DNA of 38,025 nucleotides from a virus: the IMG/VR virus record IMGVR_UViG_3300044695_006068, positions 1 through 38,025 of that record. One strand, 5' to 3'. Every line of letters begins with the position of its first letter. The stretch's first letter is position 1. A program made the translations under genes and the position numbers. This document shows, in pieces, positions 3,619 through 26,131 of the stretch. The notes below the pieces were generated by a model, which did not search any database, was not told where the DNA came from, and saw only the letters and a list, made by a program, of their open reading frames with translations.

Positions 3619-5160
3619 ATGCCCAGCCTCACCCAACGCCTGCGCCAGCGCGTGGCGCAGTTCATCGCCCCGCCGGCTGCACGCCGCCGCCTGCCGGCAG
3701 CCCAGGCCCGCCGCTTCGACGCCGCCCGGGTTGACCGCCTCACCAGTGAATGGTGGACCGCCAACGCCAGCATCAACGAAGAGCTGCGCAGCGATCTCGA
3801 CCGCCTGCGCGCCCGCGCCCGCGACCTGGCCAAGAACAACGACTACGCGCGCAAGTTCATCGGCATGTGCCAGGGCAACATCGTCGGCCCTGACGGCTTC
3901 CGCCTGCAGGCCCGCGTGGTCGACGACAACGGCCGCACGCCCGACCGCCTGGCCAACCAGGCCATCGAAGCCGCCTTTGCCGAGTGGGCCGCCGCCGCCG
4001 ACATCACCGGCACCATGAGCCTGCGCGACGTCTGCGAGACGCTGGTGGGCAGCCTGCCCACCGACGGCGAGTTTCTGGTGCGCATGGTGCGCGGCGCGGC
4101 AGCCGGCAACCGATACAACTTCGCGCTCGAGCTCATCGACGCCGACCGTATCGACACCCAGCACACCGAGCTGCTGGCCAACGGCAACCGCGTCGTCATG
4201 GGCGTGGAGCAGGACGAAGCCGGCCGCACGCTGGCGCTGCACCTGTACCAGAGCCACCCGAATGACCTGCGCGGCGCCCAGCAGCGCCGCAAGGTGCGCG
4301 TGCCGGTGGCCGAGCTGATCCACCGCTTCCGCGTCGACGTGCCCGGCCAGGCCCGGGGCGTGCCCTGGATGGCCCCGGGCATGGTGAGCCTGCACCACCT
4401 GGGCGGCTTCATGCTGAGCGCGCTGCTGGCCGCCGAGAACGGCGCCAACCACTACGGCTTCTTTCGCACGCCCGACGGCCTGCCCCCGGTGGGCAGCGAC
4501 GAAGCCGGCGACGGCCAGCAGATCACCACCAGCCAGCCCGGCACCTTCGACACGCTGCCCCCGGGCGTGGAGTTCCAGGCCTTCGACAGCAAGTACCCCG
4601 AGCAGAACTTCGGCCCCTTCGTCAAGACCACGCTGCAGCGCATCGCCAGCGGCTGGCGCGTGGCCTATCACAGCCTGGCCAATGACCTGGAAGGCGTGAA
4701 CTTCAGCAGCATCCGCAGCGGCACGCTTGAAGAGCGCGACCGCTGGGCCAGTGACCAGGCGTGGTTCATCGGCGCCTTCCTGCGGCCCATGTTCAACGCC
4801 TGGCTGCAGCAGGCGCTGTTGTCGGGCGCGGTGCTGCTGCCCAACGGCAGCGCGCTGCCGGCGTCGCGCCTGGCCAAGTTCAGCATGCACGAGTGGCAGG
4901 CCCGCCGCTGGGACTGGGTGGACCCGCGCGCCGACATGGAAGCCAAGGCCCAGGCCGTGCGCGCCGGCCTGATCGCCCCGCAGACCCTGGCCGCGCAGAT
5001 GGGGCAAGACTTCGAAGACGTGCTGCAGCAGATCGGCGAAGCGCAAGCCCTGGCCCAGCGCTACGGCGTCACGCTCACCGCTTACCAGGGCGCCCCGGGC
5101 GCCACGCCGGCCGCGCAGCCTGCGCCGGCGCCTGCACCAGCGCCGGCCGAAGCCGCTTGA
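3619..5160 (+). CDS. Portal protein (lambda gpB family)
   Basis: A 513-residue portal of the lambda family. It forms the dodecameric ring at one capsid vertex through which DNA enters and to which the tail attaches. Recognisable stretches are the N-terminal LRARARDLAKNNDYARKFIG, the central GDGFRLQ-like segment (NIVGPDGFRLQARV), and VAELIHRFRVDVPGQARGVPWM followed by a long helical region. The C-terminal 30 residues are an Ala/Pro repeat (PAPAPAPAPAE). A ribosome-binding GCAGGA lies 8 bases before the ATG. The gene is flanked by the connector and the protease-capsid gene, the usual head order. Confidence 0.92.
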   Translation: MPSLTQRLRQRVAQFIAPPAARRRLPAAQARRFDAARVDRLTSEWWTANASINEELRSDLDRLRARARDLAKNNDYARKFIGMCQGNIVGPDGFRLQARVVDDNGRTPDRLANQAIEAAFAEWAAAADITGTMSLRDVCETLVGSLPTDGEFLVRMVRGAAAGNRYNFALELIDADRIDTQHTELLANGNRVVMGVEQDEAGRTLALHLYQSHPNDLRGAQQRRKVRVPVAELIHRFRVDVPGQARGVPWMAPGMVSLHHLGGFMLSALLAAENGANHYGFFRTPDGLPPVGSDEAGDGQQITTSQPGTFDTLPPGVEFQAFDSKYPEQNFGPFVKTTLQRIASGWRVAYHSLANDLEGVNFSSIRSGTLEERDRWASDQAWFIGAFLRPMFNAWLQQALLSGAVLLPNGSALPASRLAKFSMHEWQARRWDWVDPRADMEAKAQAVRAGLIAPQTLAAQMGQDFEDVLQQIGEAQALAQRYGVTLTAYQGAPGATPAAQPAPAPAPAPAEAA

Positions 5161-16166: not shown

Positions 16167-16637
16167 ATGCCCGCCAGCCCGCCCACCTACACCCCGCTGC
16201 CCACGCCGGTGCCGCAGCGCACCGACCCGGCCAACTTTGCCGTGCGCGCCGACCTGCTGCTGACCGCGCTGCCCACCTTCGGCAATCAGATCAACGCGCT
16301 GGCCGCCAACGTCTACGCCAACGCGCTCGAGGTGCTCGCCAACGCCAACGCCACGCAGGCCGACCGCGCCCTGGCCCAGGCCGCGCTGGCGTCGATCGTG
16401 GCTGCCAACCCGGCAGCCAACGCGGCCGCCGCCGCAGCATCCGCCGCGGCCGCCGCCGTCAGCGCCGCCCAGGCGCAGGCCGTCAGCCCCGACAGCCCGG
16501 TGCGCTTCAACGCGCGCCGCATCTCGGCCCCGCTGACCATCCCCAGCGCCTACAACGCCGCATCCGTCGGCCCCATCGCCATCGACGACGGGATCACCGT
16601 CACCGTCCAAGACTTTGCCACCTGGAGCATCCAATGA
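16167..16637 (+). CDS. Tail fibre adaptor-like protein
   Basis: A 156-residue protein. The N-terminus (PVPQRTDPANFAVRADLLLTALPTFGNQIN) occurs at the start of many phage tail fibres. A long Ala-rich coiled-coil-like stretch follows (about 80-110), then FNARRISAPLTIPSAYNAASVGPI and a DGITVTVQDFATWSIQ ending, a small beta domain common at fibre ends. AGGAG lies 9 bases before the ATG. Its stop overlaps the start of the DGR target gene (ATGA), so the two are translated together; it probably links the variable receptor-binding protein to the tail. Confidence 0.6.
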   Translation: MPASPPTYTPLPTPVPQRTDPANFAVRADLLLTALPTFGNQINALAANVYANALEVLANANATQADRALAQAALASIVAANPAANAAAAAASAAAAAVSAAQAQAVSPDSPVRFNARRISAPLTIPSAYNAASVGPIAIDDGITVTVQDFATWSIQ

Positions 16638-17977
16638 GCACCCTCAACGTCCGCACCATCCAGACGCCCGACGGCTCGCCCGTCGCCTTCCCGTTCGGCA
16701 TCCGCATCGGCGCAGGCGCGGCCGGCACCATCAACCACATCGGCGTGCCGGGGCAGCAGGGCTTTGGCGTGGGCATCGCGCCTGAGATCCCGAGCGGCTT
16801 TGCCCGCCTGCCCGGCACCGAAGACCCGGCATCTGAAAACTACGGAAACTACGTGTACAGCGACGGCTCGGTGATGGTCTACGTGCCGGCCTTCTTCTAC
16901 CGCTACGGGACAGGCAGCAACGGTGGCGCCGTCAACGTCGTCGACGTCAAGCCCTTCAGCCACTGGCCCACCGTGGCCGATGCCAACGCGGCCGGCTACG
17001 CGCTGCACCGCGCCTTCTACAACGGGGGCAGCATTCGCCAGGGGTTCTGGGTCGACAAGTACCTCTGCTCCAACAACGGCGGCACCGCCAGCAGCATCAA
17101 AGGCGCCGCAGTGCTCACCAGCGCGCAGCGCGGCAGCCTGTCCACTGCCACCTTTGCCAGCCTCACCGGCACGCCCACCAACAACCTGGCCGGCGCCATC
17201 GCCGCAGCCAAGACGCGCGGCAGCCGCTTCTTCTGCAACACACGTTTCATCCGCGGCGCCTTGGCACTGCTGGCCAACGCGCACGGCTCCGCCGCCACCG
17301 GCACGGCGTTCTGCGCCTGGTACAGCGCAGGCGCCACCAACTTCCCCAAAGGCAACAACAACAACGCCCTGGGCGACAGCAACGACGCCGCCATCGCCTA
17401 CGTCGACGACGGCAATGGCACGTATGCCACCGGCCGCACCGGCAGCGCCAACCTGCCCGCGCGCGTGGCGCACAACGGGCAAGCCTGCGGCGTCATGGAC
17501 CTCAACGGAGTGGTCTGGGAAACGGAGCTGGGCATCACCAGCAACGGGACCAATTTCTACGTATTCAAGACGAGCGCTGACGTCGCCACCGTCACCGGCG
17601 GCACCACGCTGGCCACCGACGCCTGGGGCGCCACCGGCCTGGCAGCCCTGTACGACAGCCTGGGCGCCACCTACGAAAGCCTGACCGACAGCGCCAGCAA
17701 CAAGACCTTCGGCGCCGCTGCTCAGGTGCTCAGCGCCGCCACCAGCGGCAACGCCTGGGCCTTCGCGGGCTTGGGCATCGCGCTGGCCACTGGAGTAGGC
17801 GGGAGCAACCAGTTCGGCAACGATTACCTCTACGACGATCGGCCGAATGAGCTCTGTGCGATCTCTGGCGGCTACTGGGGCACCGGCAGCATTGCCGGGG
17901 TCTGGGCGCTGATTCTGGACGGCGTCCGCGGTAACTCGGACATCAACTTCGGGTTCCGCGCCGCCTCTTTCCTGTGA
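16634..17977 (+). CDS. DGR-diversified receptor-binding tail protein
   Basis: A 447-residue protein whose C-terminal 41 residues lie in the DGR variable repeat. The N-terminus (MSTLNVRTIQTPDGSPVAFP) is a common fibre-like start. From about residue 75 the chain follows a C-type-lectin/formylglycine-enzyme-like pattern: VYVPAFFYRYG, HRAFYNGG, GFWVDKYLCS, CNTRFIRGALALL, GVMDLNGVVWETELGI and the final GVWALILDGVRGNS, FGFRAASF. In this fold the diversified residues sit on an exposed surface and bind the host receptor. Variable residues against the template are 414, 416, 417, 420, 427, 429, 430, 436, 437, 439 and 444. The role is inferred from DGR logic and position after the tail genes. Confidence 0.88.
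   Translation: MSTLNVRTIQTPDGSPVAFPFGIRIGAGAAGTINHIGVPGQQGFGVGIAPEIPSGFARLPGTEDPASENYGNYVYSDGSVMVYVPAFFYRYGTGSNGGAVNVVDVKPFSHWPTVADANAAGYALHRAFYNGGSIRQGFWVDKYLCSNNGGTASSIKGAAVLTSAQRGSLSTATFASLTGTPTNNLAGAIAAAKTRGSRFFCNTRFIRGALALLANAHGSAATGTAFCAWYSAGATNFPKGNNNNALGDSNDAAIAYVDDGNGTYATGRTGSANLPARVAHNGQACGVMDLNGVVWETELGITSNGTNFYVFKTSADVATVTGGTTLATDAWGATGLAALYDSLGATYESLTDSASNKTFGAAAQVLSAATSGNAWAFAGLGIALATGVGGSNQFGNDYLYDDRPNELCAISGGYWGTGSIAGVWALILDGVRGNSDINFGFRAASFL
17851..17968 (+). repeat. DGR variable repeat (VR)
   Basis: A 118-base segment at the 3' end of the target gene, aligned without gaps to the template at 18509-18626. Thirteen positions differ: 17873, 17879, 17880, 17883, 17892, 17913, 17918, 17921, 17922, 17939, 17943, 17948 and 17964. 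The template has A at all 13, and no C, G or T of the template is changed. GGGTTCCGCGCCG at 17951-17963 is unchanged and corresponds to the initiation-of-mutagenic-homing region. Confidence 0.97.
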
Positions 17978-17984
17978 CCCTGTG

Positions 17985-18006
17985 CCCTGGCGCGACAGCG
18001 CCTGGG
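17985..18006 (+). promoter_or_regulatory. DGR target hairpin with GACA tetraloop
   Basis: CCCTGGCGC (17985-17993) pairs with GCGCCTGGG (17998-18006), with one T-T mismatch, around a GACA loop. It begins 7 bases after the target stop and 16 bases after the VR. The BPP-1 DGR needs a short hairpin or cruciform just downstream of VR for efficient retrohoming, with a GNNA-type four-base loop. The same position and loop type here suggest the same role. No matching hairpin follows the template copy, as expected if it marks the target. Confidence 0.65.
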
Positions 18007-18025
18007 CCTCTTGCCTGAGCCAGAC

Positions 18026-18505
18026 ATGAGCCACAACACCCGCAGCATCCACGCACAGGCCGGCTTGCACCGCAAGCTGATCCTGTTTGCTGCGCAGTTG
18101 GAGCTGTACCTGGCGCACTTCCCCAGCCACCACAAGTACGCGCTGACGCAGCAGATCCGCGCGGCCTACGTGGACGTCTACAACCTCGTGACGGAGGCAC
18201 AGAAGCGCTACCACAAGCGCACCACACTTACCCAGCTCGACATCCGGCATGAGCAATTGCGCATGCTGCTGCTGCTGGCGCACGAGCTGGGCCTGTTTCA
18301 CTTCAGCAAAGGCAAGCAAGACCCCGAGCGCCCGGGTGACCACCGGGCCTTGGTGATCCTGCGCCTGGTCGACGAGCTGGGCCGAATGATCGGCGGCTGG
18401 CTGGCCAGTCAATCACAAGCCGGGCCCCAGGCCTCGGCTGAGCCGGCGGCACCATCGCCGGCGCATGAATCCGGCGGCCTGGCCGTCGGTGCGGTAGGGG
18501 CTTGA
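18026..18505 (+). CDS. avd: DGR accessory variability determinant (Avd-like)
   Basis: A 159-residue protein, basic and helical over residues 1-115, as in Avd four-helix-bundle proteins that form a pentamer and bind both reverse transcriptase and template RNA. Helices can be seen in QAGLHRKLILFAAQLELYLA, KYALTQQIRAAYVDVYNLVT, TLTQLDIRHEQLRMLLLLAH and HRALVILRLVDELGRMIGGW. The last 35 residues are an Ala/Ser/Pro tail. The ATG at 18026 is preferred to an in-frame TTG at 18011. Its stop lies 4 bases before the template repeat. Target, avd, TR, RT is the BPP-1 order. Confidence 0.85.
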   Translation: MSHNTRSIHAQAGLHRKLILFAAQLELYLAHFPSHHKYALTQQIRAAYVDVYNLVTEAQKRYHKRTTLTQLDIRHEQLRMLLLLAHELGLFHFSKGKQDPERPGDHRALVILRLVDELGRMIGGWLASQSQAGPQASAEPAAPSPAHESGGLAVGAVGA

Positions 18506-18796
18506 CATGCTCTGTGCGATCTCTGGCGGCAACTGGAACAACGGCAGCAATGCCGGGGTCTGGGCGCTGAATCTGAACAACGTCCGCGGTAACTCGAACA
18601 ACAACATCGGGTTCCGCGCCGACTCTGAGCCTGGCTTGCCACATGCGGCATCGGCCGACCGGCACAGAGGGAGCCCCCGTCGCGGCTGGTGCCGAAATGT
18701 TCTGTTGCCGCGCCCTGCAGTAGCCCCGGCCGCCCGTGTTGGCAGCCCGGCGACCCTTGGCGCAGCAACCCCTTTGCCCAGCAGGTTGCGCGCACG
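18490..18796 (+). ncRNA. DGR template RNA (TR plus 3' spacer)
   Basis: No gene is needed between avd (ends 18505) and the reverse transcriptase (starts 18797). The stretch holds the TR and then 170 bases of spacer (18627-18796). In BPP-1 the functional RNA starts just before TR and needs roughly 140 bases of spacer after it for Avd/RT binding and self-priming. The size here fits. An open frame across TR (18507-18800) exists only because the template copies coding sequence. The exact RNA ends are not visible. Confidence 0.65.
18509..18626 (+). repeat. DGR template repeat (TR)
   Basis: The invariant template copied by the reverse transcriptase. It contains 26 adenines, many in AAC or AAT codons if read in the target frame (NWNNGSNAGVWALNLNN, NSNNN), the hallmark that lets adenine mutagenesis reach many amino acids. 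It matches VR at 105 of 118 positions, and all 13 differences lie at template A. The match ends at 18627, where the template has G and VR has T. Confidence 0.97.
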
Positions 18797-19864
18797 ATGA
18801 AACGCCACGCAAACCTGTTTGACCAGTACGCGCACCCCGATGCGCTGCTGCACGCCTACCGGCGCGCCCGCGAGGAAAAGCGCAACAGCCGCGGCTGTTT
18901 CCTGTTCGAGCGCAACCTGGGCGCCAACATCCACGGTCTGCACGCGCAGCTTCTGGACGCCACGTATGCGCCGCTGCCGGTCAATGCCTTCTGGATCAAC
19001 GATGGGCGCAAGCCCCGCCTAATTGAAGCGCCCTCGTTCCGCGACCTGGTCGTGCAGCACGCCGTCTATGCCGTCGTCGGCCCGCTGTTCGAGCGGCGCT
19101 ACATCGCCACCAGCTTTGCCTGCCGCACCGGGCTGGGCACGCACGCCGCCGCCGATTGGCTGCAGGCCGCCATGCGCCGCGCGCCGCGCAGCGCCTGGGC
19201 GCTGCACGTGGACGTGCGCAAGTTCTTCTACAGCGTCGACCGCGCCACGCTGGCCGCCCTGGTGCGCCGCGTCATCAAGTGCCCGGACACCCTGCGCCTG
19301 CTCGACCTGTTCGCCCAGCGCCCGGCGCCAACGGGCATCCCCATCGGCAACCTGATGTCGCAGACGTTCGCCAACCTGTACCTCAACAGCCTCGACCACT
19401 TCTGCAAGCGCACGCTGGGCGCGGCCGACTACGGGCGATACATGGATGACGCCGTGATGATCGCCCCGAGCCGCGCCGTCGGCCAAGACTGGCTGCACCG
19501 CATCGGCGAGCACCTGGCGCTGCTCGGGCTGGAAATTAGCCACCACAGCCTGCAGCCCATTGCCCGCGGCGTCAACTGGGTTGGCTACCGCACGTGGGCC
19601 CGTGCGCGCTTTGTGCGCCCGCGCCTGGTCCACCAGATCCGCGCCGACGCCCGCCACGCCCGCATTCAACCTCTGGTGTCGCGCCTTGGCCATGCGCGCC
19701 GCACCGCGTCTTTCCGGCCCCTCATCCAGTACATCACGGAGCATCACCATGCCGTCGCTCATCGCCTACCGAAAAGTTGTCACGCCCATGCACACGTGGG
19801 AGCTTCGCCTGCCCGAGGGCAACGCCGGCCAGCGCCAGGCGCAGGAACTCGCCACGCTGCCTGA
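18797..19864 (+). CDS. DGR reverse transcriptase
   Basis: A 355-residue reverse transcriptase of the DGR type. Visible motifs: ALHVDVRKFFYSVDR with catalytic Asp139, GIPIGNLMSQTFANLYL (residues 180-196; the I/LGxxxSQ motif that marks DGR enzymes), YGRYMDDAVMI with YMDD at 215-218, LGLEISHHS, and GVNWVGYRTWARARFVRP at the thumb. It copies template RNA into cDNA with errors opposite adenine. The ATG at 18797 is chosen because the chain then starts like other DGR enzymes. The last 38 residues overlap the next gene in another frame and are Ala/His/Arg-rich with no clear motif. Confidence 0.95.
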   Translation: MKRHANLFDQYAHPDALLHAYRRAREEKRNSRGCFLFERNLGANIHGLHAQLLDATYAPLPVNAFWINDGRKPRLIEAPSFRDLVVQHAVYAVVGPLFERRYIATSFACRTGLGTHAAADWLQAAMRRAPRSAWALHVDVRKFFYSVDRATLAALVRRVIKCPDTLRLLDLFAQRPAPTGIPIGNLMSQTFANLYLNSLDHFCKRTLGAADYGRYMDDAVMIAPSRAVGQDWLHRIGEHLALLGLEISHHSLQPIARGVNWVGYRTWARARFVRPRLVHQIRADARHARIQPLVSRLGHARRTASFRPLIQYITEHHHAVAHRLPKSCHAHAHVGASPARGQRRPAPGAGTRHAA

Positions 19865-20174
19865 CGGGCGCACCGTCGTCGCGCTGGACGACGGGGCCAC
19901 GCTGCCCGCCACGCAGCCGGCGCAGATTGCCGCCAGCATCGAGCACCTGCCCAACCCGCTGCCGTCTGACCTGCGTGACGCCATCCGCGCTGTCAGCCCC
20001 CAGGTGCGGCTGATCCAGCAGCGCGTGGTGGATGCCATCCGCAGCCGCTACAGCGTCGACGACGAAATCAAGCTCCTGCGCACCGCCCCCAGCGCCGAAA
20101 CCGAGGCATGGAACTCCTACGTCGAAGACTGCCGCGCTTGGGGCAGGGCAGAGCGCGCGAAGCTCGGGCTGTGA
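19749..20174 (+). CDS. Conserved phage protein after DGR, unknown
   Basis: A 141-residue protein (MPSLIAYRKVVTPMHTWELR). It overlaps the reverse transcriptase gene by 116 bases in another frame. The C-terminal end (IRSRYSVDDEIKLLRTAPSA, EAWNSYVEDCRAWGRAERAK) looks like small proteins coded after tail-fibre genes in betaproteobacterial phages, with a conserved Trp-rich helix. It may be a fibre chaperone or a virion component, but no function is established from the sequence. Confidence 0.6.
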   Translation: MPSLIAYRKVVTPMHTWELRLPEGNAGQRQAQELATLPDGRTVVALDDGATLPATQPAQIAASIEHLPNPLPSDLRDAIRAVSPQVRLIQQRVVDAIRSRYSVDDEIKLLRTAPSAETEAWNSYVEDCRAWGRAERAKLGL

Positions 20175-22990: not shown

Positions 22991-23944
22991 TCAAGCCCGG
23001 CGCTTGCCGATCTTGGCCACCGCCTCGGCCAGCGTGTCCGCGTACAGGTGTGCGTAACGCTGCGTGCTGGCAGGGCTCTTGTGGCCGAGCACCTGGCCGA
23101 CGGTGAACAGCGGCACGCCAGAGTTCGCCATCTCGCTGGCCGCGCTGTGGCGCAGGTCATGGAAGCGCACGTCGCCCAGGCCCACCTTGTCGCGGGCGCG
23201 GGTCCAGGCAGCCTGGATGCCGCGCTTGTGGCCGGTCAGCGGCAGAAACTTCAGCAGGTGGCGGATGCGCGGGTGCGGCGGGATGACGCGCGGCTGGCCG
23301 TTCTTGCTGTCGTGCAGCACCAGCAGGCCGTCGACTACCTGCACGGCCCACAGCTCGCCCAGGCGCATGCCGGTGTAGAAGCACACGCGGATGGCGATCT
23401 GCGCCTGCCAGCTGCCGCACGCGCGGCACGCCTGCAGCATGCCCTTGCGCGTGATGTAGGTCTTGCGGGCATTGCGCACCACGGGCAGCAGCATGCGCGC
23501 GGTGGGGTCGGTGTCGGTCAGGCCGTGGCGTTTCCAGGCCCAGCGACACGCCGCCTTGAGCAGCGCCAAGCGGTTGCGCAGGGTGGCCGGGCTGGCGTCG
23601 GACGCGGCGATCACTTCGCGCGCCACATCGGGCAGGTCGATCATGGGCTTGCCCTGCCAAGCCCAGGCGATGGCGCCCAGGTGCTCGGCCGCGCTCTTGT
23701 AGCTCTTGAGGCCGGTCTTGTCGGTCAGGTAGTGCTTGACCGCCTGGTCGATCAGCGGCTCGGCTCGGGCGACGCCAGCCGCAAGCGCGTAGAGCCGCGC
23801 TGTTTCGGCTCGGTCGAACGTGTCAGCCTGGGCTTGACTCCAGCCCTTCGGAAGCAATCGAGTAAGTCGGTGTCGGCGACCTTCAAGATAGCGGTCGAAC
23901 GAGAAACGCCAGCGCTTGTCAGCCTTTGACCAGTAGATCGACAT
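22991..23944 (-). CDS. int: Tyrosine-type integrase
   Basis: A 317-residue site-specific recombinase. The catalytic set is visible: Arg194 (TGMRLGELW), Lys214, His262 and Arg265 (FHDLRHSAASEM), His288 (VLGHKS) and the nucleophile Tyr297 (TQRYAHL). The N-terminal half has a core-binding domain (about 60-145) and a short arm-binding start. It is the last gene of the leftward operon, next to attP, and should insert the phage into the host tRNA-Ser gene. The first 193 bases overlap the excisionase frame, an unusually long overlap. Confidence 0.95.
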   Translation of the reverse strand: MSIYWSKADKRWRFSFDRYLEGRRHRLTRLLPKGWSQAQADTFDRAETARLYALAAGVARAEPLIDQAVKHYLTDKTGLKSYKSAAEHLGAIAWAWQGKPMIDLPDVAREVIAASDASPATLRNRLALLKAACRWAWKRHGLTDTDPTARMLLPVVRNARKTYITRKGMLQACRACGSWQAQIAIRVCFYTGMRLGELWAVQVVDGLLVLHDSKNGQPRVIPPHPRIRHLLKFLPLTGHKRGIQAAWTRARDKVGLGDVRFHDLRHSAASEMANSGVPLFTVGQVLGHKSPASTQRYAHLYADTLAEAVAKIGKRRA

Positions 23945-24606: not shown

Positions 24607-24794
24607 TTCGGCCCCTCCACATGCGCCCAGTGCGTCACACCCTCGACCACGCCGCCCGTGGCGCAGTCGAACCAGCAGTCGACCTCGTCGTCGTACCAGC
24701 CAGAGAACCATTCGCCCGTGTCGCGACAGCACAGCACGGTGGTTTCGCAGTCGGGCTTTGTAGCCACGGGACTCCAGGTCAGGGTTTCGGTCAT
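24603..24794 (-). CDS. DUF551-like small protein
   Basis: A 63-residue protein (MTETLTWSPVATKPDCETTV) with the DUF551 pattern: a Trp-Pro start, VLCCRDTGEWFSGWYDDE in the middle and VTHWAHVEGPK at the end. Such proteins are frequent in phage early regions; function is unknown. AGAGGAAGG precedes the ATG, and the start overlaps the methyltransferase stop (ATGA). Confidence 0.7.
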   Translation of the reverse strand: MTETLTWSPVATKPDCETTVLCCRDTGEWFSGWYDDEVDCWFDCATGGVVEGVTHWAHVEGPK

Positions 24795-26131
24795 GCCGCC
24801 TTCCTCTCTTGCGCCATCTCGGCAAAGTTCGCCCGCACCAGCGCCTCGGCCATGGGCGGGCACACGCTGTTGCCGATCATGCGCACCTGCGCGTGCTTGG
24901 GCAGGCTGCGGCCCAGGTGGGGGGCGTCGAGCATGTAGCTCTCGGCAAAGCCCTGGGCGCGGGCCAGTTCGCGGGGCTGCAGCATGCGCAGCCCGATGTC
25001 GACTATGCGGAACTGCTCGCCGGCCACGGTGACCAGGGCCATGCGGTCTTTGGTGGGCAGGGTGTGCATCGGCTCGTCCAGGCCGGCCCACTGGCCGCCG
25101 CTGCCGTAGAACTTGACCATGAATGCGGCCACCAGGCTGTGATGGTCCACGCTGGTGACGGTGCCCATCGGCATGCGCAGGTCACTGCCCACGACGCCGG
25201 TGTAGTGCTTGGCCAGGAAGGCCGACACAAGGCAGTGCTCTGCCTTGCTGGTGATCGTGCTCAGCGGCTCGTGCACGCCGCGCACCTTGCCGGCGTCGCC
25301 GTCGCCGGTGTGGCCGATGCGCACGATGAAGGGCTTGGCGGCCTCGATGACGAAGCGGCGCAGCCCTTCGGCCACGCGGCGCAGGGTGGCGTCTGCCAGC
25401 GGGCGCGCACGGTCGAAGATGGACGGGCAGGGCAGGCTCCAGTCGATGCACTGCGCAGCCGTGCGCCAGGGCTGGGGCCGGCCGGGGCCATGCGTGGGTG
25501 TCGGCCACACGATGGGCTGGCCATCGCGCCGCGCCACCAGAAACAGGCGCTTGCGGCTGGTGGGGGCGCCGTAGTCGCAGGCGCGCAGCTCGCGCCACTG
25601 CACAGCGTAGCCCAGGCGCTGCAGGGCGTTGACGAAGGCGCGGAACTCGCGGCCCCGGTTGCGCGGGCAGGGCCGGCCGTCCTGCGTGAGCGGGCCCCAG
25701 GTGACGAACTCTTCCACGTTCTCCAGGCAGATGATGCGCGGCTGCACCGTGGCCGCCCAGCGCACCGCCACCCAGGCCAGCCCGCGAATCTTCTTCTCCA
25801 CGGGCCTCCCTCCCTTGGCCTTGCTGAAGTGCTTGCAGTCCGGGCTGAACCACGCCAGGCCCACAGGCTGGCCGGCGCAGGCTTCGCGCGGGTTCACGTC
25901 CCACACGCTTTCGCACAGGTGGCGCGTCTGCGGGTGGTTGGCCTGGTGCATGGCCACCGCCTCGGGGTCGTGGTTGATCGCGATGTCCACCGGCCGGCCA
26001 ATGGCCCGCTCGATGCCCGACGAAGCGCCGCCACCGCCGGCAAAGTTGTCGACCACCAGCTCGCGGTGCAGGGGGAGCAGGAATTGCTTCAAGCCGCCAC
26101 CTCGCGCAAAACCCCGCCGCAAAAGCAGCAC
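24791..26131 (-). CDS. DNA cytosine-C5 methyltransferase
   Basis: Up to 446 residues. Motif I FAGGGGASSG (30-39), motif IV FSPDCKHFS with catalytic Cys99 (a PDC instead of the usual PPC, as in one phage-associated subgroup), motif VI LENVEEF near 136, motif VIII-like CDYGAPTSRKRLFLVAR, and motifs IX-X with RELARAQGF and MIGNSVCPPMAEAL at the end. It transfers methyl groups from S-adenosylmethionine to cytosine. No restriction nuclease is nearby, so it is probably an orphan phage enzyme that protects DNA or tunes expression. The start could instead be TTG 26092, preceded by GAGGTGG. Confidence 0.93.
   Translation of the reverse strand: MLLLRRGFARGGGLKQFLLPLHRELVVDNFAGGGGASSGIERAIGRPVDIAINHDPEAVAMHQANHPQTRHLCESVWDVNPREACAGQPVGLAWFSPDCKHFSKAKGGRPVEKKIRGLAWVAVRWAATVQPRIICLENVEEFVTWGPLTQDGRPCPRNRGREFRAFVNALQRLGYAVQWRELRACDYGAPTSRKRLFLVARRDGQPIVWPTPTHGPGRPQPWRTAAQCIDWSLPCPSIFDRARPLADATLRRVAEGLRRFVIEAAKPFIVRIGHTGDGDAGKVRGVHEPLSTITSKAEHCLVSAFLAKHYTGVVGSDLRMPMGTVTSVDHHSLVAAFMVKFYGSGGQWAGLDEPMHTLPTKDRMALVTVAGEQFRIVDIGLRMLQPRELARAQGFAESYMLDAPHLGRSLPKHAQVRMIGNSVCPPMAEALVRANFAEMAQERKAA

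Follow-up and report, generated by a model that had tools for sequence, protein, structure and literature searches.

A template repeat held in an open frame between avd and the reverse transcriptase of a phage DGR, a candidate translational coupling device

The template repeat (TR) RNA of diversity-generating retroelements (DGRs) is usually described as non-coding (PMC4372165). In the 38,025-base IMG/VR virus record IMGVR_UViG_3300044695_006068, analysed here over its whole length and referred to as the window, the TR lies within an open reading frame (the TR-ORF) that begins directly after the gene for the accessory variability determinant (avd) and ends on the start codon of the reverse transcriptase (RT) gene. 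The question raised by this locus is whether such a frame is open by chance, encodes a peptide, or is kept for the expression of the RT.

The phage and its DGR cassette

The window encodes a gpA-type terminase, a lambda-type portal, a protease-capsid fusion, a tail tube protein, an integrase, a cytosine methylase, and VapE/PriCT, and these genes point to a temperate tailed phage. The cytosine-C5 DNA methylase and the phage integrase are both encoded on the minus strand, at positions 24794-26131 and 22994-23944, respectively. The host is likely a member of the Burkholderiales, as the two bacterial relatives found are a Burkholderiales MAG and a Rhodoferax MAG. Searching the window against Rfam gave no matches, and neither did a DNA-level search of E. 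coli genomes with the window.

The cassette is arranged in the order putative CLec-type target gene with the variable repeat (VR), avd, TR, spacer, and RT gene (Table 1). The product of the target gene is probably a tail or receptor-binding protein. Its profile weakly matches (2.4e-05) TaqVP 5VF4, the Thermus aquaticus DGR variable protein and a C-type lectin (PMC6328139), in two stretches comprising a central GVWE region (the CLec core) and the VR. The VR is located at the 3' end of the gene, as in other DGR targets. A CLec fold may be suggested by this weak profile match, and the AlphaFold model of the target has a pLDDT of 30. The Avd accessory protein of DGRs was identified by both a Pfam and a PHROG profile. 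Aligning the RT to place its lineage, as proposed in a first-pass annotation of the sequence, identified a DGR-type enzyme with intact YMDD and IGNLMSQ motifs, whose nearest solved structure is 8UB7 (E 4.5e-50), which we take to be the DGR RT of phage BPP-1. The C-terminus of the RT overlaps the next gene (19749-20174) by 116 nt in another frame, and this overlapping end explains why RT length in relatives ranges from 334 to 355 aa.

Table 1 Features of the DGR cassette, in positions of the window.
Feature	Position	Strand	Details
Target gene, DGR variable protein	16634..17977	+	447 aa, C-terminal VR; PHROG 2889 and 5302 (tail) matches
Variable repeat (VR)	17851..17968	+	Last diversified adenine position 17948
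IMH-like invariant VR 3' end	17949..17968	+	C at 17964, A in TR, a fixed difference
Potential hairpin after VR	17984..18007	+	5+4 bp stem, one T-T mismatch, loop GACA (fits GRNA)
avd, accessory variability determinant	18026..18505	+	159 aa; PF22296 bAvd 6.5e-13 (above cutoff); phrog_3206 Avd
TR-ORF	18507..18800	+	97 aa; begins (ATG) 1 nt past the avd stop; no stop within TR or spacer; ends in overlap with RT start
Template repeat (TR)	18509..18626	+	26 adenines; frame same as VR; identical in L004
Spacer, TR to RT	18627..18796	+	170 nt; TR-ORF frame kept, no codon periodicity
ATGA start-stop overlap, TR-ORF/RT	18797..18800	+	NTGA in 52/58 clusters
DGR reverse transcriptase	18797..19864	+	355 aa; PF00078 (RVT_1) 9.4e-15; phrog_1423 1.2e-93; 8UB7 4.5e-50

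Adenine-specific diversification and its 3' edge

The VR and TR comprise 118 bases each, and one copy of each is present in the whole record. As the first-pass annotation had noticed, the two repeats differ at 13 sites that all fall on TR adenines, so that 13 of the 26 template adenines are changed, while none of the 92 non-A template bases differs. The chance of all 13 differences falling on TR adenines is 1.5e-10 (hypergeometric). Six of the changes are A>G, five are A>T, and two are A>C, and the variable adenines are nearly all found at codon positions 1 and 2, many of them within AAY codons, where stops therefore cannot arise.

The 11 residue changes originally counted across these 13 sites are present as listed, yet the 13th difference (D to A) proved to be fixed, leaving 12 diversified sites and 10 residues. 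This site, an A at position 18622 of the TR and a C at 17964 of the VR (D444A), has these same two bases in all 22 close relatives compared, and across the wider clade nearly every RT cluster keeps the difference at this 3' edge. As the share of C expected at a diversified site is about 11%, the site represents a fixed difference rather than diversification and most likely lies beyond the copied part, as a difference between IMH and IMH*. Such a position fits BPP-1, where cDNA synthesis begins within the IMH* at the 3' junction of the TR (PMC12875486). The IMH of the VR is hence unlike the IMH* of the TR, both by this fixed A/C difference and by the divergence that follows it, and it could be speculated that the conserved difference sets the direction of transfer.

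The hairpin described for DGRs is GC-rich, follows the VR, and has a GRNA loop and a stem of 7-10 bp. The stem of the potential hairpin in the window contains one mismatch and is interrupted in other lineages, and a covariation test of a simple helix in this post-VR hairpin gave no support. In most sampled relatives, the element following the VR reads GAGC-GRTA-GCGA, with possible tandem G-A pairs and no plain stem.

An RT search returned 24 viral loci, with an RT identity of 59-97% in all but one, and VR/TR pairs were recovered in 22 of these, along with the TR of a 23rd (L014). Tallying mutations over columns 1-110 of 22 non-redundant VR/TR pairs, the window included, revealed that 308 of 541 TR-adenine cells were changed (159 to G, 87 to T, and 62 to C), compared to 3 of about 1,900 non-adenine cells. 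The comparison among relatives that had been proposed as a check thus found an invariant TR and a VR changing almost only at TR adenines. For example, no difference separates loci L006 and L008 in 1,000 nt of the target gene, avd, the TR, the spacer, and 1,000 nt of the RT gene, yet 13 of 25 TR adenines and 0 of 85 other sites differ between their VRs. The pairs L015/L017 and L011/L012 are much like L006/L008, with the VR alone changed. Likewise, the window and L004 share an identical TR, and their VRs have diverged at 15 of the 25 TR adenines and at 0 of the 85 other bases. The earlier suggestion of an active-looking phage DGR with recent activity was borne out by the complete cassette and by the L006/L008 pair, identical but for 13 TR-adenine sites of the VR. 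A complete and recently active DGR in the window is thereby supported by a population signature of activity. Mutagenic retrohoming in vivo is predicted, and its chemistry is presumably that of BPP-1, given the homology between the two systems. The survey sequences include metagenome contigs and may contain assembly errors, but such errors would favour neither TR adenines nor one frame.

A frame kept through template and spacer

The first base of the TR is the G of the TR-ORF ATG (18507-18509), and the TR-ORF is in the same frame as the VR. A coupled TR-ORF lineage is defined here by an ATG after the avd stop, an open frame through TR and spacer, and an NTGA at the RT start, all of which are found in the window. 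The initial set of 24 sequences showed this arrangement without exception, and the spacers, 149-170 nt long, were all 2 mod 3.

This could represent an ordinary active DGR whose TR-ORF is a chance product of GC-rich DNA, since the TR must be stop-free to encode the VR, chance ORFs of at least 80 aa are plentiful in the window (201), and frame 2 of the spacer is likewise open in the window. A widened survey covered 226 loci with a full VR ORF, grouped into 141 RT clusters (85%) and 104 lineages (75%), and RT starts were placed by profile position, independently of the TR frame. In a quick tree, the window RT belongs to a 31-lineage clade (SH-aLRT 100). In this clade, frame 0 is open in 27 of the 31 lineages, and in 27 of 31 it ends exactly at +1 relative to the RT start, compared to control frames 1 and 2, which are open in 8 and 5 lineages and have the exact stop in none, although these counts derive from related, non-independent sequences and are not to be read as probabilities. 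Across 1,495 codons of the clade, frame 0 carries 5 stops, and frames 1 and 2 carry 44 and 48. The TR-ORF is also kept at a spacer GC content of 0.43-0.55, and the exact NTGA overlap occurs in 4 of 71 outside the clade, which is about chance level. A frame open by chance is thus already refuted by the survey, unless the survey is badly biased, and is considered extremely improbable.

At 85% clustering, the TR-ORF pattern is found in 52 of 58 clade clusters, with the tetramer at the RT start being ATGA in 46, TTGA in 4, and GTGA in 2, and a stop codon precedes the TR-start ATG by one base in 51 of the 58 RT clusters. The length of the TR-ORF takes 14 different values between 82 and 124 aa, so many length changes have all kept the frame. 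Four lineages of the clade, L029 (Bise), L088, L189, and L087, are without the arrangement, and all have good VR/TR pairs, demonstrating that the coupled arrangement is not essential to DGR function. In L093 and L094, the TR frame extends far upstream without a stop, reaching back 370 and 248 nt from the TR, respectively, and continues in frame into the RT, and these may be avd-TR-RT or TR-RT fusions. In the cultured Aeromonas phage phiWae15 (L034), an annotated hypothetical gene (3726-4001) exactly spans TR and spacer between avd and RT, ending 2 nt before the RT, making this phage a possible bench model.

The conserved start, stop, and frame would also be expected if the TR-ORF encoded a functional small protein, e.g., a lectin-like decoy, as its TR part would give an invariant VR-like peptide. 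However, in 17 pairs with equal-length spacers, substitutions at the three codon positions amounted to.113/.115/.145 in the spacer, compared to.118/.091/.391 in the RT, and the spacer codons of these pairs had no significant third-position excess or codon periodicity. The wide length range of the TR-ORF and the lack of a match in a Pfam search with it likewise argue against a functional peptide, which is regarded as very improbable, and a protein-coding role was rejected on the basis of the missing codon periodicity. Judged from these substitution patterns, the spacer evolves as RNA rather than protein while the frame is held, with only start, frame, and stop being kept. By analogy with BPP-1, the spacer may fold, recruit RT-Avd, and hold the priming adenine (PMC12875486).

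Translational coupling and known systems

The locus is probably best described as an active DGR of a temperate tailed phage in which avd, template, and RT constitute a single translationally contiguous operon, with the TR-ORF acting as the coupling device. RT and Avd would reverse-transcribe the TR RNA, making errors at adenines, and the resulting cDNA would replace the VR at the 3' end of the gene encoding a C-type-lectin-like tail protein. Ribosomes ending avd would restart one base downstream on the TR-ORF, read TR and spacer in frame with the VR, terminate at the NTGA, and begin again on the RT. The TR-ORF would then be kept for coupling and not for its peptide, and a frame held without amino-acid constraint would be expected of such a device. 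Both translation of the TR-ORF and dependence of the RT on it are predicted from the gene arrangement.

In the native BPP-1 operon, brt is without a clear ribosome-binding site (RBS), and supplying one increased activity 100-fold in E. coli (PMC12875486), indicating that RT translation is a real bottleneck. The RT starts of the clade carry ordinary SD-like sequences (mean -5.1 kcal/mol, compared to -5.4 in uncoupled DGRs), and therefore the RT could also start on its own. A G-rich, SD-like stretch before the TR scored -7.8 in the clade and -6.8 in uncoupled DGRs; as the latter also carry it, the stretch was dropped as evidence of a clade-specific RBS, and it may be an RNA motif instead.

The open frame might alternatively keep ribosomes on the RNA and thereby prevent Rho-dependent termination between avd and RT, without coupling initiation. 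While this would account for a frame without amino-acid constraint, it does not by itself demand an NTGA overlap this exact or a gap of 1 nt behind avd, and is considered unlikely. The RT also lies in the -1 frame relative to the TR-ORF, and VP58.5, ACA1, and their relatives carry a fused TR-RT frame (PMC10612066), so the two could be joined into one protein by a -1 frameshift, resembling VHML-like phages, in which TR and RT are fused in frame. Yet, inspection found no conserved slippery sequence directly before the stop, and the RT keeps its start codons (ATG, GTG, or TTG), making frameshifting a highly unlikely explanation.

Within the preferred reading of translational coupling, it could be speculated, as a tentative and rather doubtful extension, that the RT is made only by ribosomes reading through the template in the target frame. 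In that case, a stop or frameshift in the template would end the copying of that template, and further RT synthesis would be prevented by RT-Avd on the spacer, creating a self-checking and self-limiting mutator. In practice, the translation of brt is a bottleneck where a structured spacer precedes it (PMC12875486), and an open, start-stop-coupled template without peptide constraint suggests how DGRs may set the level of RT and tie it to an intact template. The coupled lineage may also point to DGRs that are functional in new laboratory hosts without an added RBS.

Among known systems, the DGR of Bordetella phage BPP-1 (mtd, avd, TR, brt) shares order, parts, and IMH/IMH* logic with the window, and its RT, the best structural match (8UB7), is 37.6% identical to the window RT. 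However, the TR frame of BPP-1 stops about 31 nt before brt, with no ATG at the TR start and no coupled TR-ORF. The VHML-like DGRs of Vibrio phage VP58.5 and Pseudoalteromonas phage ACA1 resemble the window in having the TR in an open frame that reaches the RT, but there the TR is the N-terminal part of the RT, whereas the window has a separate ORF with a start-stop overlap. These DGRs form a separate RT lineage, with the TR in frame as the RT N-terminus in 6 of 7, and the arrangement in ACA1, where the TR forms the N-terminal part of the RT, has been called uncommon (PMC10612066). Pseudomonas phage Bise encodes the nearest RT of a cultured phage (41.7%) and belongs to the same clade as the window, but its TR frame has stops and it has no coupled TR-ORF. 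On inspection, no coupled TR-ORF was found in BalMu-1 and ANMV-1 either. In DiGReF group 3 DGRs, the TR also overlaps coding sequence, but, in the part of the source consulted, the group is defined by overlap with the annotated RT ORF and a separate ORF coupling avd and RT was not found there (PMC3521204). A separate coupled TR-ORF was not found described in the DGR and template-repeat literature, in a search that mostly missed subscription papers and preprints. Compared with these systems and judged by its sequence, the DGR of the window is itself ordinary, while the coupled TR-ORF, found in most of one large RT clade, appears to be new.
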